Source: a virus
Direction: 5' to 3' (one strand)
Virus record (IMG/VR): IMGVR_UViG_3300042691_005220
Location: 1-24,254 of that record
Length of the DNA stretch: 24,254 nt
In this document: positions 13,544-18,180 of the stretch, one piece after another
How positions within the stretch are numbered: position 1 is the first letter of the stretch
How the letters are laid out: the number at the start of each line of letters is the position of its first letter
Notes under the pieces: generated by a model
The model's input: only the letters and a program-made list of their open reading frames with translations
Databases searched by the model: none
What the model was told of the DNA's origin: nothing
Position numbers and translations under genes: made by a program

Positions 13544-13574
13544 ATCACTTTACAACAGCTTTTTGTTATGTTAT

Positions 13575-13582
13575 TATAAATA
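13575..13582 (+). promoter_or_regulatory. T4-late-like promoter motif (exact TATAAATA)
   Basis: This is the one exact copy of the T4 late consensus TATAAATA in the window. It lies 25 bases before the ATG at 13608, with TTAGGAGAG as ribosome site between. Predicted +1 is near 13587-13589. It would drive the three overlapping genes 13608-15225. Confidence 0.55.
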
Positions 13583-13607: not shown

Positions 13608-13985
13608 ATGGCAATCAAACAGCCCTACATTGTATTAGACCAGCGACAGGGACACAGTCAAAAATACGGCACTGAAATGACCACTATCATAATGGTAGGA
13701 GTCAAAGACCGTAGAGAGTATGTCACCTACATTGACGCACCCAATCGCAATGTCAAACACTGGCAACACATCACTAATAGCCCCACACACGGCTTTGTGC
13801 TGAGAAACCTAGACACCACTAACAAAAGCACCAAAAAAGGTCAGACCATAATCAATGCGGATTCACAACCAATCATTGAATGGGAAACTGACACCTTGGA
13901 TGAAGTGTTGGCGGATGCTCAGAAGTTTTGGGCAGAAGAAGACAAACGCAATGGCAGTGATAAGTTTGGAGATCTATTTGAATGA
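13608..13985 (+). CDS. Conserved-type phage protein of unknown function
   Basis: A 125-residue soluble protein without membrane segment. The first half is beta-rich (P-Y-I-V-L-D-Q-R, Y-V-T-Y-I-D-A-P-N-R-N). The middle holds H-I-T-N-S-P-T-H-G-F-V-L-R-N-L and the motif I-I-N-A-D-S-Q-P. The C-terminal third is a charged helix ending in an acidic G-D-L-F-E tail. An acidic tail of this type can serve as a partner-binding peptide, as in single-strand binding proteins, but no OB-fold signature is clear to me. It has a good ribosome site and an exact TATAAATA promoter motif, and overlaps the next gene by four bases. Function not assigned. Confidence 0.65.
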   Translation: MAIKQPYIVLDQRQGHSQKYGTEMTTIIMVGVKDRREYVTYIDAPNRNVKHWQHITNSPTHGFVLRNLDTTNKSTKKGQTIINADSQPIIEWETDTLDEVLADAQKFWAEEDKRNGSDKFGDLFE

Positions 13986-14209
13986 GATCTTTACTAAAAA
14001 AGAAAATGACTGCATTAGAATGGAATAATCGCCTAAGTCAAACAGAATACACTGAGCGTAGGATCACCTATGAGGGCAAATACCTAGGTGTTATGATCAA
14101 AGACCTACCTACGCATTACATCAAGTGGGGCATACTAAATTTAGGTAGTAGTAGTTGGGCTGACTTCTTTGCTAGAGAACTTCAAAGACGTGATAGAAGT
14201 TTTAAATGA
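13982..14209 (+). CDS. Small QSregVF/DUF3820-like protein
   Basis: A 75-residue basic protein with the pattern Y-E-G-K-Y-L-G-V-M-I-K-D-L-P-T-H-Y-I-K-W (residues 30-49), close to the 'GKYKG..i.dlP..Yl.W' core of the DUF3820/QSregVF family, which occurs alone or attached to exonucleases and helicases. It starts in the ATGA overlap with the previous gene and its end overlaps the next gene by four bases, so the three are probably co-translated. This suggests a nucleic-acid-related role with the polymerase-like protein downstream. The family function is not well known. Confidence 0.6.
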   Translation: MRSLLKKKMTALEWNNRLSQTEYTERRITYEGKYLGVMIKDLPTHYIKWGILNLGSSSWADFFARELQRRDRSFK

Positions 14210-15225
14210 CCTATACACCTAACTTCAATGACCCTCGTGTTCGTGCTAGATCAATATCAGCATTGACATTTGTAGAACAATACATCAAATCCACACAAAG
14301 CCGTTGGTTGTCTAGCAGAGAGATAGCCCGACATTTTGGTTGGCAGGGCAGACCCTTAGGCAAGTTCCTTAAGGATCATTTGCTAGTTTGCACTGATGCC
14401 TATTACAATATCCAAACAGGTCAATGCAAAAAATATACCAGCAATCCACAAGGTGTTAGTCTTCTAAAACAACAATTGGGTCTAGTGGCAGTTCCAGTGA
14501 ATATCCCAGATACCCTACAACAGCAGTTAAACACAGGTCTATTTGATTACAAAGACACTGGGCATAGAGAATACCACCCTCTGCAAAATTTACCCAAACG
14601 CATTAAACTACCTTTGCTTAGGGCCAGCAATTACAGACATGAGTATGACATCCAATGTTGTGCTCAATCACTGCTTCTACAACACGCAGAACAATTGGGT
14701 TTTGATCAAGCTACACCAGCACTTAGTGAATATATTTCTAACAGAACAGATGTAAGACAACGGCTTAGTGATCAATTGAGTTTAGACACACACACAATCA
14801 AACGAATACTCACAGCCATTCTAAATGGTGGCAGTATATCTGCTTGGCATGAAAACATGATCTTTGCCTATGTGGACTATAATAGGCTAATGATCTCTGA
14901 ACTCAAAGACAATGAATACATTCTACAATATCAGAAAGATGTTAGAGCAATGTGGAAGGCAATTAGACTGCATCAGTCATTGAGGAAAGGAGAAAGATTC
15001 AATGCCAAGATGAAGAGTGAGATTTATAGATTGTTAGAGGAATCAGTGAGAGTGGTGATTAAGAAGCATTTGAAGAAGACCAAGAACAAGGCATTCATTG
15101 AACATGACGGGTGGAGTTCAGAGAGAGCAGTTGATATTGATAGATTGAAATATGAAGTTGAAAAACAAACAGGGTTTGTGATTGAACTTGATTGGACAAT
15201 ACATGAATATGTTGACTCTTACTAA
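14206..15225 (+). CDS. Superfamily-A-polymerase-like protein with N-terminal HTH (TV-Pol-like candidate)
   Basis: A 339-residue protein. Residues 35-60 (L-S-S-R-E-I-A-R-H-F-G-W-Q) form a winged-helix-like segment. After that come features in the order of a minimal polymerase palm: G-H-R-E-Y-H-P-L-Q-N-L-P-K-R (119-132); Y-D-I-Q-C-C-A-Q-S-L-L-L (147-158) as motif A with Asp148; I-K-R-I-L-T-A-I-L-N-G-G (198-209) as motif B with Lys199; and E-H-D-G-W (299-303) as motif C with His300-Asp301. The best-matching concept I know is TV-Pol, a family-A-related group in mobile elements and virophages proposed to be primase-polymerases. This is pattern reading, not a profile hit. It overlaps the DUF3820-like gene by four bases. 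Confidence 0.5.
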   Translation: MTYTPNFNDPRVRARSISALTFVEQYIKSTQSRWLSSREIARHFGWQGRPLGKFLKDHLLVCTDAYYNIQTGQCKKYTSNPQGVSLLKQQLGLVAVPVNIPDTLQQQLNTGLFDYKDTGHREYHPLQNLPKRIKLPLLRASNYRHEYDIQCCAQSLLLQHAEQLGFDQATPALSEYISNRTDVRQRLSDQLSLDTHTIKRILTAILNGGSISAWHENMIFAYVDYNRLMISELKDNEYILQYQKDVRAMWKAIRLHQSLRKGERFNAKMKSEIYRLLEESVRVVIKKHLKKTKNKAFIEHDGWSSERAVDIDRLKYEVEKQTGFVIELDWTIHEYVDSY

Positions 15226-15292
15226 TACACACACGCACACACAGCATTATACTGTTGCGGTTCTCCTCAGTAATCGCTATTTTGGATAAAAA

Positions 15293-16035: not shown

Positions 16036-16881
16036 ATGGCTAAACCCGCAATTACCAAACGAGCAGTCAAAGGTCTTGCACTGACCTATGCAGAACTAGA
16101 TACCAACTTTCAGAATCTAGCAGATGCCACTATTGCAGTGACAGGCGACACCGGCACTATAACCAACAACCTCAATGATAGTTTTCAGATTGCAGGCGGC
16201 ACAGCTTTAACCAGTTCAGTAGCAGGCACCACACTGACACTGAACCTAGACAACACAGCGGTTAGTGCAGGATCATATACCAATGCCAATATCACAGTAG
16301 ACGCACAAGGACGCATCACAGCCGCAGCCAATGGCTCAGCAGGTGGTAGCGGCACTGTTCAAGCAGGCGATCAATATGATTTTGCCTTCTATGATCTTGC
16401 TGATGGCAATACTAGAATCAATAACAGCCCAGCCCTGTTTACAGATGCCAGTGATGGCCTACACCTAGGTGCTGATCTAGATGTCAACGGCAAATCAATC
16501 AAGGCCTTAATTGAAAACAATGTGAGCATTACTACATCAGGAGCCAATGCCAATACAACCACAGCCCGTATCATAATTGACAGCGGGCGTGCCAGTGTCA
16601 CAGTGCATGCCAGTGGCCAAGTAGAAATGCACAGCTCAGCACTAGGTGAAATAGAGCTAGACAATCAAAATTGGCCTACTGCGCCCAGTGCGGACAATTA
16701 CAAGGTATTAATGACAACTCCAAACGGAGCAAAGGCAGACCTAAGTTGGCAATATCCTGCACAGACCTTTACTACAACACAACGCAATGCCTTGACTGCT
16801 TTCAATGGCATGTTGATTTACAATTCAACTGACAGCAAGATACAGGGCTATGCGGGTGGTGCCTGGGTTAACCTACATTGA
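16036..16881 (+). CDS. Tail fibre protein (KGxALTYxE type)
   Basis: A 281-residue fibre protein. The N-terminal tag (residues 6-28: I-T-K-R-A-V-K-G-L-A-L-T-Y-A-E-L-D-T-N-F) is the attachment segment typical of many marine phage fibres. Residues 69-100 hold the repeat module L-N-L-D-N-T-A-V-S-A-G-S-Y-T...I-T-V-D-A-Q-G-R, shared with the fibre at 17473. Then comes a beta-rich body, and a C-terminal knob ending N-G-M-L-I-Y-N-S-T-D-S-K-I-Q-G-Y and A-W-V-N-L. It likely binds the host surface. It belongs with the coiled-coil gene four bases upstream; AAGGA at 16018-16022 lies rather far from the ATG. Confidence 0.8.
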   Translation: MAKPAITKRAVKGLALTYAELDTNFQNLADATIAVTGDTGTITNNLNDSFQIAGGTALTSSVAGTTLTLNLDNTAVSAGSYTNANITVDAQGRITAAANGSAGGSGTVQAGDQYDFAFYDLADGNTRINNSPALFTDASDGLHLGADLDVNGKSIKALIENNVSITTSGANANTTTARIIIDSGRASVTVHASGQVEMHSSALGEIELDNQNWPTAPSADNYKVLMTTPNGAKADLSWQYPAQTFTTTQRNALTAFNGMLIYNSTDSKIQGYAGGAWVNLH

Positions 16882-17472: not shown

Positions 17473-18180
17473 ATGTCAACAATTGTCACAAGAGCAGGTA
17501 AAGGCTCAGCACTAACCTGGACAGAAGGTGATGCCAACATCACCAACCTTAATAATGACAAGATGGAGAACTTCACCGTTGCTGGTGATAGTGGCACCAA
17601 TCAAACCGTTTCAGGTGGCAACACCTTAACCATCTCAGGTGGCACTGGACTTAGTTCAGTAGCGTCAAATACAGATGTTTTAACAATCAATCTAGACAAC
17701 ACCGCAGTTGCGGCGGGTTCATATACCTATGCGTCAATCACCGTGGATGCACAAGGCCGCTTGACTGCCGCTTCAAATGGCACAACCCCATTAACTTCAG
17801 GTGGTGCATTGGGCACACCTTCATCAGGCACATTGACCAACTGCACGGTAAATGGCACTGATCCTATTGGTTATAGAGATTTGCCCGCAGTAGGCACTAA
17901 GACTTCAAGTTATACATTGGCCACAGGTGATGTAGGCAAGTATGTTCAAGTAGGTAGTGGTGGTAGCATTACTATACCTAACTCTACATTTGCAGAAGGT
18001 GATGTTGTTGTGATTGCCAACAATCACTCAGCAGCCATAACCATTACCTGCTCAATTACAGATGCCTATATTGCAGGCACTGACACAGACAAGGCCACTG
18101 TATCATTGGCCACTCGTGGAGTCTGCAACATCCTGTTCCTAAGTGGAACTCGTTGCATCATAACAGGCAATGTATCATAA
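17473..18180 (+). CDS. Tail fibre protein (KGSALTWTE type)
   Basis: A 235-residue fibre protein. N-terminal tag R-A-G-K-G-S-A-L-T-W-T-E-G-D-A-N-I (residues 7-23) corresponds to the tag of the fibre at 16036. Residues 72-103 repeat the module I-N-L-D-N-T-A-V-A-A-G-S-Y-T...V-D-A-Q-G-R, nearly identical to that fibre. The body is Gly/Ser/Thr-rich (G-G-A-L-G-T-P-S-S-G-T-L-T-N-C). The C-terminus (G-D-V-G-K-Y-V-Q-V, then G-D-V-V-V-I-A-N-N) is a beta domain of the kind found in phage fibre and capsid-associated proteins. AGGAG precedes the ATG. Its TAA shares a base with the next ATG, so it is coupled to the LamG-type protein. Confidence 0.8.
   Translation: MSTIVTRAGKGSALTWTEGDANITNLNNDKMENFTVAGDSGTNQTVSGGNTLTISGGTGLSSVASNTDVLTINLDNTAVAAGSYTYASITVDAQGRLTAASNGTTPLTSGGALGTPSSGTLTNCTVNGTDPIGYRDLPAVGTKTSSYTLATGDVGKYVQVGSGGSITIPNSTFAEGDVVVIANNHSAAITITCSITDAYIAGTDTDKATVSLATRGVCNILFLSGTRCIITGNVS

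Follow-up and report, generated by a model that had tools for sequence, protein, structure and literature searches.

Between the tail fibre genes and the terminase small subunit gene of an uncultured phage lies a gene whose product seems to carry the motifs of a polymerase palm within only 339 amino acids. Is this protein a polymerase, and if so, what would it do at such a place? The window, i.e. the whole analysed stretch of 24,254 nucleotides (IMG/VR record IMGVR_UViG_3300042691_005220), had been read in a first-pass annotation as encoding a small protein resembling TV-Pols or other superfamily-A polymerases. The reading frame is intact (ATG at 14206, stop at 15223-15225, plus strand), and D148, K199 and H300-D301 are found exactly where that annotation had placed them. 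Its location among tail fibre genes was also correctly recognised: the neighbourhood comprises a J-like tail protein and fibre-like genes, and the right end of the window holds the terminase small subunit gene and a cut-off methyltransferase gene. The gene is the third of a trio whose members overlap by ATGA at 13982-13985 (genes 1 and 2) and at 14206-14209 (genes 2 and 3). Co-translation with a DUF3820-like protein had been claimed; the upstream gene of the overlap at the polymerase start is that of the DUF3820-like protein. The match of the window copy to PF12843 reaches only 19.2 bits and is thus under the curated cut-off of 22. Its homologue in locus L044 (L numbers denote loci from the searches described below) scores 34 bits, above the cut-off. 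The features of the region, with the evidence in brackets, are as follows.

13549..13582, plus strand: possible promoter, TTTACA-N17-TATTAT plus TG, leading into TATAAATA (10/12 consensus positions)
13608..13985, plus strand: trio gene 1, predicted OB-fold (SSB/PriB-like) protein of 125 aa with the C-terminal tail KFGDLFE (AlphaFold2, structural neighbours)
13982..14209, plus strand: trio gene 2, DUF3820 (PF12843)-like protein of 75 aa (Pfam profile matches)
13986..15289, plus strand: exchangeable slot, in the window holding the DUF3820-like gene and the polymerase gene (DNA similarity breaks, presence/absence)
14206..15225, plus strand: trio gene 3, predicted minimal family-A / TV-Pol-like polymerase (ORF, 57 members, AlphaFold2 model, structural neighbours, profile link)
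14206..14505, plus strand: N-terminal domain of the polymerase, residues 1-100 (DSSP of the model)

The late-type promoter proposed earlier could not be established. TATAAATA occurs once, at 13575-13582, with 0.42 occurrences expected by chance, and it lies upstream of trio gene 1 and not of the polymerase gene itself; sigma-70-like sites are no denser in the region than chance would give (11 observed vs 9.3 expected). We therefore did not accept that the polymerase has a late promoter of its own. TAAATA is present upstream of the OB-fold gene in 13/13 stretches compared, mostly behind a -10-like stretch, two pairs of these stretches being identical and the TAAATA of L168 lying further upstream. 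The promoter-like element, host-type or late-type, would serve the whole trio.

Searches with the polymerase sequence against Pfam, PHROGs, NCBIfam and PDB sequences returned nothing significant, only sub-threshold matches, and identification by sequence search alone was given up. In contrast, iterated searches of IMG/VR expanded from 8 to 15, 28 and finally 68 loci. Seven loci were not extracted as duplicates, cut or frame-broken (L012, L014, L015, L016, L025, L031, L038), and five further ones were dropped (L048, L068 and L070 as identical, L055 as frame-broken, L077 as cut), so that the 61 extracted loci together with the window gave 57 distinct full-length proteins, among which near-duplicates remain; the family alignment used for profiles (A4) has 52 rows. 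R121, Q127, Y147, D148, R184, K199, W250, Y274, E278, H300 and D301 are invariant in 57/57 members, and G208 and G302 are each present in 56/57, some members being only about 25-30% identical to the window protein. The family is real, well conserved and absent from the family databases searched (Pfam, PHROGs, NCBIfam). Among named phages the sole match was one Desulfovibrio phage (two records; E 1e-5, residues 126-212). A single Polaromonas plasmid matched in the plasmid search (E 8e-7 over residues 126-329), and no relative was found in GTDB bacterial and archaeal genome contigs (query A1). The Polaromonas plasmid protein likewise had no relative in bacterial or archaeal genomes, and a viral scan queried with the Desulfovibrio phage protein returned none.

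The A-B-C motif order of a reduced palm, as read in the first pass from YDIQCCAQS (D148), IKRILTA (K199) and EHDGW (H300-D301), holds throughout the family, and the GHREY...LPK segment noted alongside contains R121. The positions of interest are listed below with their state among the 57 members.

14566..14568, plus strand: R121, hairpin Arg before motif A (57/57; pairs with R257 of the Polaromonas plasmid protein P0002)
14647..14649, plus strand: D148, putative catalytic Asp of motif A, palm strand 1 (57/57; pairs with D285 of P0002)
14662..14664, plus strand: A153, family-A ribose steric-gate position, D+5 (54/57 Ala)
14755..14757, plus strand: R184, fingers Arg outside the RxxxK place (57/57)
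14800..14802, plus strand: K199, motif B Lys, fingers helix 195-206 (57/57; Kx7xG spacing)
15103..15108, plus strand: H300-D301, motif C, turn of hairpin 296-305 (57/57)

K199-x7-N207-G208 has the motif B spacing of family A (K522-x7-YG in T7 DNA polymerase, K631-x7-YG in T7 RNA polymerase). Position 153, assigned as the steric gate by an ungapped five-residue step from D148, is Ser, Cys and Met once each in the members without Ala; the sequences of T7 DNA polymerase and T7 RNA polymerase show E480 and G542 at motif A +5. In Pol I the corresponding Glu, E710, blocks ribonucleotides, according to the accessible text of PMC9324360. Because Ala replaces Glu here, the polymerase is predicted to tolerate ribonucleotides and to select only weakly against rNTPs, as would be expected of a primase or an RNA polymerase. 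The T7-type RNA polymerase combination of a motif-B Tyr with a small +5 residue is not seen, the Tyr position being A, C, N, Q or S in most members. In the fingers, E, P, V or T predominate at position 195, and Arg is not one of the eight residues commonest there; the invariant R184 sits 15 residues ahead of K199. Position 179, which may correspond to the published TV-Pol fingers Asp, is D in 27/57 and N in 22/57 members.

The AlphaFold2 model of the polymerase (22-sequence alignment) reached a pLDDT of 91.7 and a pTM of 0.77. According to DSSP, strand 145-149 carries D148 and is followed by helix 153-163 and by helices within 171-206, the final one (195-206) holding K199; the C-terminal part consists of helix 267-291, hairpin 296-299/302-305 with H300-D301 at its turn, helix 311-322 and strand 328-332. 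As modelled, the elements follow one another as in a family-A palm (RRM-type) with the fingers inserted after strand 1. The palm suspected from the letters is therefore present in the predicted fold, with D148, K199 and H300-D301 on the expected elements. VIA-align listed 50 matches, every one of them a family-A DNA polymerase (Z 10.1-11.6 over 209-250 aligned residues), with T7 DNA polymerase entries among them at Z 10.7-11.3 with 11-12% identity over 213-241 aligned residues. Foldseek against the PDB gave no match at E <=1e-3; its top matches were T7 DNA polymerase and KlenTaq at E 1.3e-3 with probability 1.00, and mitochondrial RNA polymerase followed at a weaker E (7e-2). In a search of viral models the best matches were uncharacterised Caudovirales proteins (1.4e-10), with virophage replication proteins slightly lower (Qinghai Lake virophage ‘helicase/primase/polymerase’, 6e-7; Zamilon ‘DNA replication protein’, 2e-6). 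For roughly the first 100 residues the model predicts helices 10-26, 37-44 and 50-59 and strands 60-64 and 76-79; such a helix-helix-helix-hairpin order would fit a winged helix. Ahead of the hairpin of R121 lie two short helices (81-91 and 102-110), possibly a vestigial thumb; most VIA alignments begin near residue 98-101. We rate the polymerase fold and its catalytic competence as highly probable.

How does this protein relate to known minimal polymerases? As available to us, the text of Iyer, Abhiman and Aravind 2008 (PMC2579912) defines TV-Pols by a two-helix thumb, a hairpin Arg, two palm Asp, and a fingers Asp with RxxxK, gives their size as 400-600 aa, proposes a priming role from their linkage to helicases, associates them with D5-like helicase or transposon genes, and counts Microcystis phage LMM01 among the carriers. 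The comparison set comprised four TV-Pol-like proteins: LMM01 MAP_030, which we take from its motifs and its transposase neighbour to be the LMM01 gene meant in that text, two Polaromonas plasmid proteins and the Desulfovibrio phage protein. Profile alignment of the family against this set (hhalign) gave a probability of 99.4 and E 1.9e-21 over 222 columns, and paired D148, K199 and H300-D301 with their counterparts. The hairpin Arg (R121) and both palm Asp (D148, D301) of the definition are thus found. The RxxxK is not, as K199 lacks an Arg at position 195; the LMM01 and Polaromonas plasmid proteins also lack an Arg at -4. Because of this missing Arg we call the protein a TV-Pol-like variant, judged by its motifs, rather than a strict TV-Pol. 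Shared with TV-Pols are the minimal family-A core, the hairpin Arg, the two palm Asp, the fingers Lys with Kx7xG, the carriage by viruses and plasmids, and the neighbours, virophage proteins in structure and TV-Pol-like proteins in profile. In contrast, the phage polymerase has no Arg four residues ahead of the fingers Lys, is shorter (339 aa), bears a winged-helix-like N-terminal domain, and is encoded in the fibre-packaging interval of tailed phages. Also, a D5 helicase (D5_N) was found in 0/50 polymerase records, whose completeness is uncertain. Some unannotated or differently annotated proteins came up in these comparisons. Nitratidesulfovibrio phage SRB7757 encodes an unannotated 767-aa protein (L010:2101-4404) with the TV-Pol-like motifs KRILTAGCYGA and LLHDG and a long C-terminal extension, and the TV-Pol-like proteins of the Polaromonas plasmids pW9NP1 (L082:37-1653) and pH8NP1 (L083:1287-2792) are annotated as ‘hypothetical’ and ‘Clp protease N-terminal domain-containing’. 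With 19.9 bits, Clp_N stayed short of the Pfam cut-off of 20.7 bits.

A second relative in kind is divPolA2 of barbaviruses and other phages, which in the available text of PMC11348598 is likewise a small phage protein that has a palm but no recognisable thumb, joined to an unrelated N-terminal domain and encoded in a variable neighbourhood; its hairpin segment is also similar (RMYDLGIQNLPK vs REYHPLQNLPK). However, divPolA2 has Glu at motif A +5 where the phage family has Ala, and hhalign against divPolA2 AUR84708 was weak (probability 3.2 with the 52-row and 4.5 with the merged 56-row alignment, E 0.009-0.014). With the T7 DNA and RNA polymerases the protein shares the order of palm and fingers and motifs A, B and C, but it lacks their exonuclease or promoter-recognition domains. 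The T7-type profile alignment pairs K199 with the motif-B Lys; a terminase control gave a probability of 0.2. The first-pass annotation had regarded the whole arrangement as undescribed. It is not unique to this phage, since dozens of contigs from uncultured phages have it too, in the form of an exchangeable cassette. The available text of the mostly open-access TV-Pol and phage literature (PMC2579912, PMC11348598, PMC10061031, PMC7581432) yielded no published description of the lineage.

The product of trio gene 1 bears directly on function. Its AlphaFold2 model (11 relatives, pLDDT 84.1) shows strands and a helix in OB order. VIA-align neighbours are PriB (Z 6.5), RPA and SSB, with Z of 5.0-6.5 in the middling range and with generic OB folds and a few unrelated non-OB chains also among the structural neighbours; Foldseek placed RPA, MCM10 and SSB on top (E 0.014-0.032). 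In the tail of the protein F120, L123 and F124 are invariant in 11/11 relatives. A small MP protein gives the family-A polymerase CcPol of SCCmec the ability to prime de novo (PMC7581432, as far as its text is available), and MP is predicted to be an OB fold in the accessible part of PMC10061031. As in PolA-SSB primases, a small predicted OB-fold protein is encoded near the polymerase, and with CcPol-MP the locus shares the presence of both genes in one run. The differences are considerable: the phage polymerase is smaller, has no exonuclease remnant and no adjacent helicase gene, and the OB-fold gene comes first, with the DUF3820-like gene in between, and persists without the polymerase. The accessible text of PMC7581432 also states that CcPol-MP itself favours dNTPs. 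The pairing is not obligatory, because the OB-fold gene cluster is present in only 4 of the 62 loci clustered and the gene is kept without the polymerase in close relatives.

These relatives show that the polymerase is an exchangeable accessory gene in a variable fibre-packaging slot. The OB-fold protein is encoded in 17 loci. In L165, L166 and L170 the nearest genes on each side are 79-95% identical to those of the window, yet exactly the DUF3820-like gene and the polymerase gene are absent; at the DNA level, similarity to these loci ends at 13985 and restarts at 15290 (13998 and 15290 for L167). The polymerase was absent from 11/11 whole OB-gene records by family profile search; these records are possibly fragments, with the slot itself covered in L165-L170. 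Elsewhere the slot holds a 233-aa protein (L166:6558-7259 and L167:6610-7311), a 231-aa protein (L168:6527-7222) or small ORFs (L169). The slot proteins of L166 and L168 had no Pfam match, and that of L168 ends in VEDLF. Mantel tests, from which ten duplicate or partial loci were excluded, showed no correlation of polymerase distances with those of TerL (r 0.075, p 0.30, n 25) or TerS (r 0.058, p 0.32, n 25), in contrast to TerL vs TerS (r 0.852, p 0.0005, n 20). Among neighbour clusters, built on the output of a simple ORF caller and not of a gene finder, the correlation with a zinc-ribbon-like cluster was weak (r 0.326, p 0.03, n 10) and two others were uncorrelated (r 0.138, p 0.11; r 0.193, p 0.12). 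The accessory status thus follows from syntenic relatives that lack exactly this cassette and from a divergence that does not track the terminase, which also means that the polymerase has been swapped largely independently of the packaging genes. A role as core replicase of the phage was rejected, as close syntenic relatives lack the gene. Searches for replication families, covering the first 50 of 65 records, found neither DNA_pol_A nor SSB (PF00436) in any of them and DnaB_C in a single one, of 101 kb; since the completeness of the records is uncertain, these absences hold for these contigs only. An AAA+ ATPase (PF00004, 32 bits for the L042 copy) recurs in contigs that carry the polymerase (L042:7590-8528, L046:13335-14195, L072:9900-10775; cluster of 8 loci) and is possibly a helicase or a loader.

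What, then, would the enzyme do? We favour, with some reserve, a minimal, catalytically competent TV-Pol-type family-A polymerase that acts most likely as a primase-polymerase in phage replication or repair. The main ground for priming is the overlapping OB-fold gene, which parallels CcPol-MP. Against this reading, the profile comparison with T7 DNA polymerase is weak (hhalign probability 5.6, 14.9 with the merged alignment and 1 with the single sequence), as are the Foldseek E-values to the PDB. The missing RxxxK Arg, the non-obligatory pairing with the OB-fold gene, the absence of D5_N from the 50 records and the dNTP preference of CcPol-MP also count against it. We infer activity, residue roles, priming, ribonucleotide use, OB partnership and host hand-over as follows. 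The polymerase would consist of palm and fingers with a reduced thumb, preceded by an additional DNA-binding domain that is probably a winged helix. D148 and D301 would perform metal-dependent nucleotide transfer, K199 and R184 would hold the incoming triphosphate and R121 the template, and single-stranded DNA would be held by the N-terminal domain together with the co-translated OB-fold protein. Without the ribonucleotide-excluding Glu, the polymerase could lay down a short primer and then extend it, and the primer would be taken over, probably, by the host replicase.

The strongest competitor, although an unlikely one, is a primer-dependent repair or translesion DNA polymerase of low fidelity that does not prime. 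An exonuclease domain would not fit into the 339-aa model, a reduced thumb together with a non-aromatic residue in place of the motif-B Tyr suggests distributive, error-prone synthesis, and the distribution of the gene is that of an accessory function; in contrast, Ala at the steric-gate position and the gene overlap with a predicted OB-fold protein, as in the known primase pair, speak for priming. The same small steric-gate residue, comparable to Gly542 of T7 RNA polymerase, the DNA-binding-like N-terminal domain and the mitochondrial RNA polymerase among the Foldseek matches would fit a single-subunit RNA polymerase transcribing phage genes, like the T7 enzyme or as suggested for divPolA2. 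We regard this as quite improbable, however, since the aromatic of RNA polymerase motif B (Tyr639) is missing, all 50 matches listed by VIA-align are DNA polymerases, and 339 aa leave little room for the promoter-recognition parts of T7 RNA polymerase.

The accessory distribution that fits repair fits other roles too. A variable slot beside fibre genes and an exchange independent of the terminase would suit a polymerase fold used in phage-phage competition, counter-defence, template-free addition or fibre diversification, a reading that has very little probability: the window contains no template/variable repeat pair but only repeats of 102 nt (75%) and 40 nt (70%). Diversity generation of the DGR type was dropped for want of a suitable repeat pair in the window. 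The accessory presence of the gene might also be that of an inactive relic with a structural role, yet the catalytic and neighbouring residues are unchanged throughout a family this divergent, which makes a relic barely conceivable.

A bolder version of the primase-polymerase reading is possible but doubtful. Here, a new lineage without a ribose gate would start chains de novo, probably with ribonucleotides and the OB partner, and would pass from one small tailed phage to another as a replication cassette lodged between fibre and packaging genes; the aromatic-x-x-L-F tails of its neighbours would tie them to one hub, possibly the host sliding clamp. Such tails (FGDLFE, FRDLFN, FEDLFE, FDKLFGG) were observed on small, seemingly unrelated proteins adjoining the polymerase, namely the product of 13608-13985 in the window and neighbours in L011, L019, L021, L024, L028, L030, L039, L040, L041, L043, L044, L046, L049, L053 and L066. 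They are reminiscent of (S/D)LF, with which the clamp-binding motif of bacteria, QL(S/D)LF, ends according to the accessible text of PMC9690074. The pattern for the count was chosen after viewing the tails, and nine loci that were duplicates or partial were omitted, as was the final same-strand gene of every locus; on this basis the tails are found in 16/195 genes within two places of the polymerase vs 10/597 further away (Fisher p 5e-5), and by family in 7/127 vs 3/337 (p 0.006); shuffled tails gave a mean of 0.9 and a maximum of 6 matches. The same tail is also present on some phage methyltransferases.

With 339 residues, 209-250 of which align to family-A polymerases, the protein would be near the natural minimum and would show what the superfamily can dispense with. 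Tens of unannotated phage genes would gain a testable function, and polymerases of phages, virophages and plasmids would be linked. CcPol-MP has raised the question of how chains can be started without a primer by a polymerase of family A, and the trio would offer a second and very compact system for addressing it.

Two further observations concern other genes of the window. The adjacent genes at 1262-1699 and 1710-2156 are clearly similar, tail-tube-like by look only, and have the look of a tandem duplication. The 102-nt repeat, at 16237-16338 and 17683-17784, is common to two fibre-like genes.
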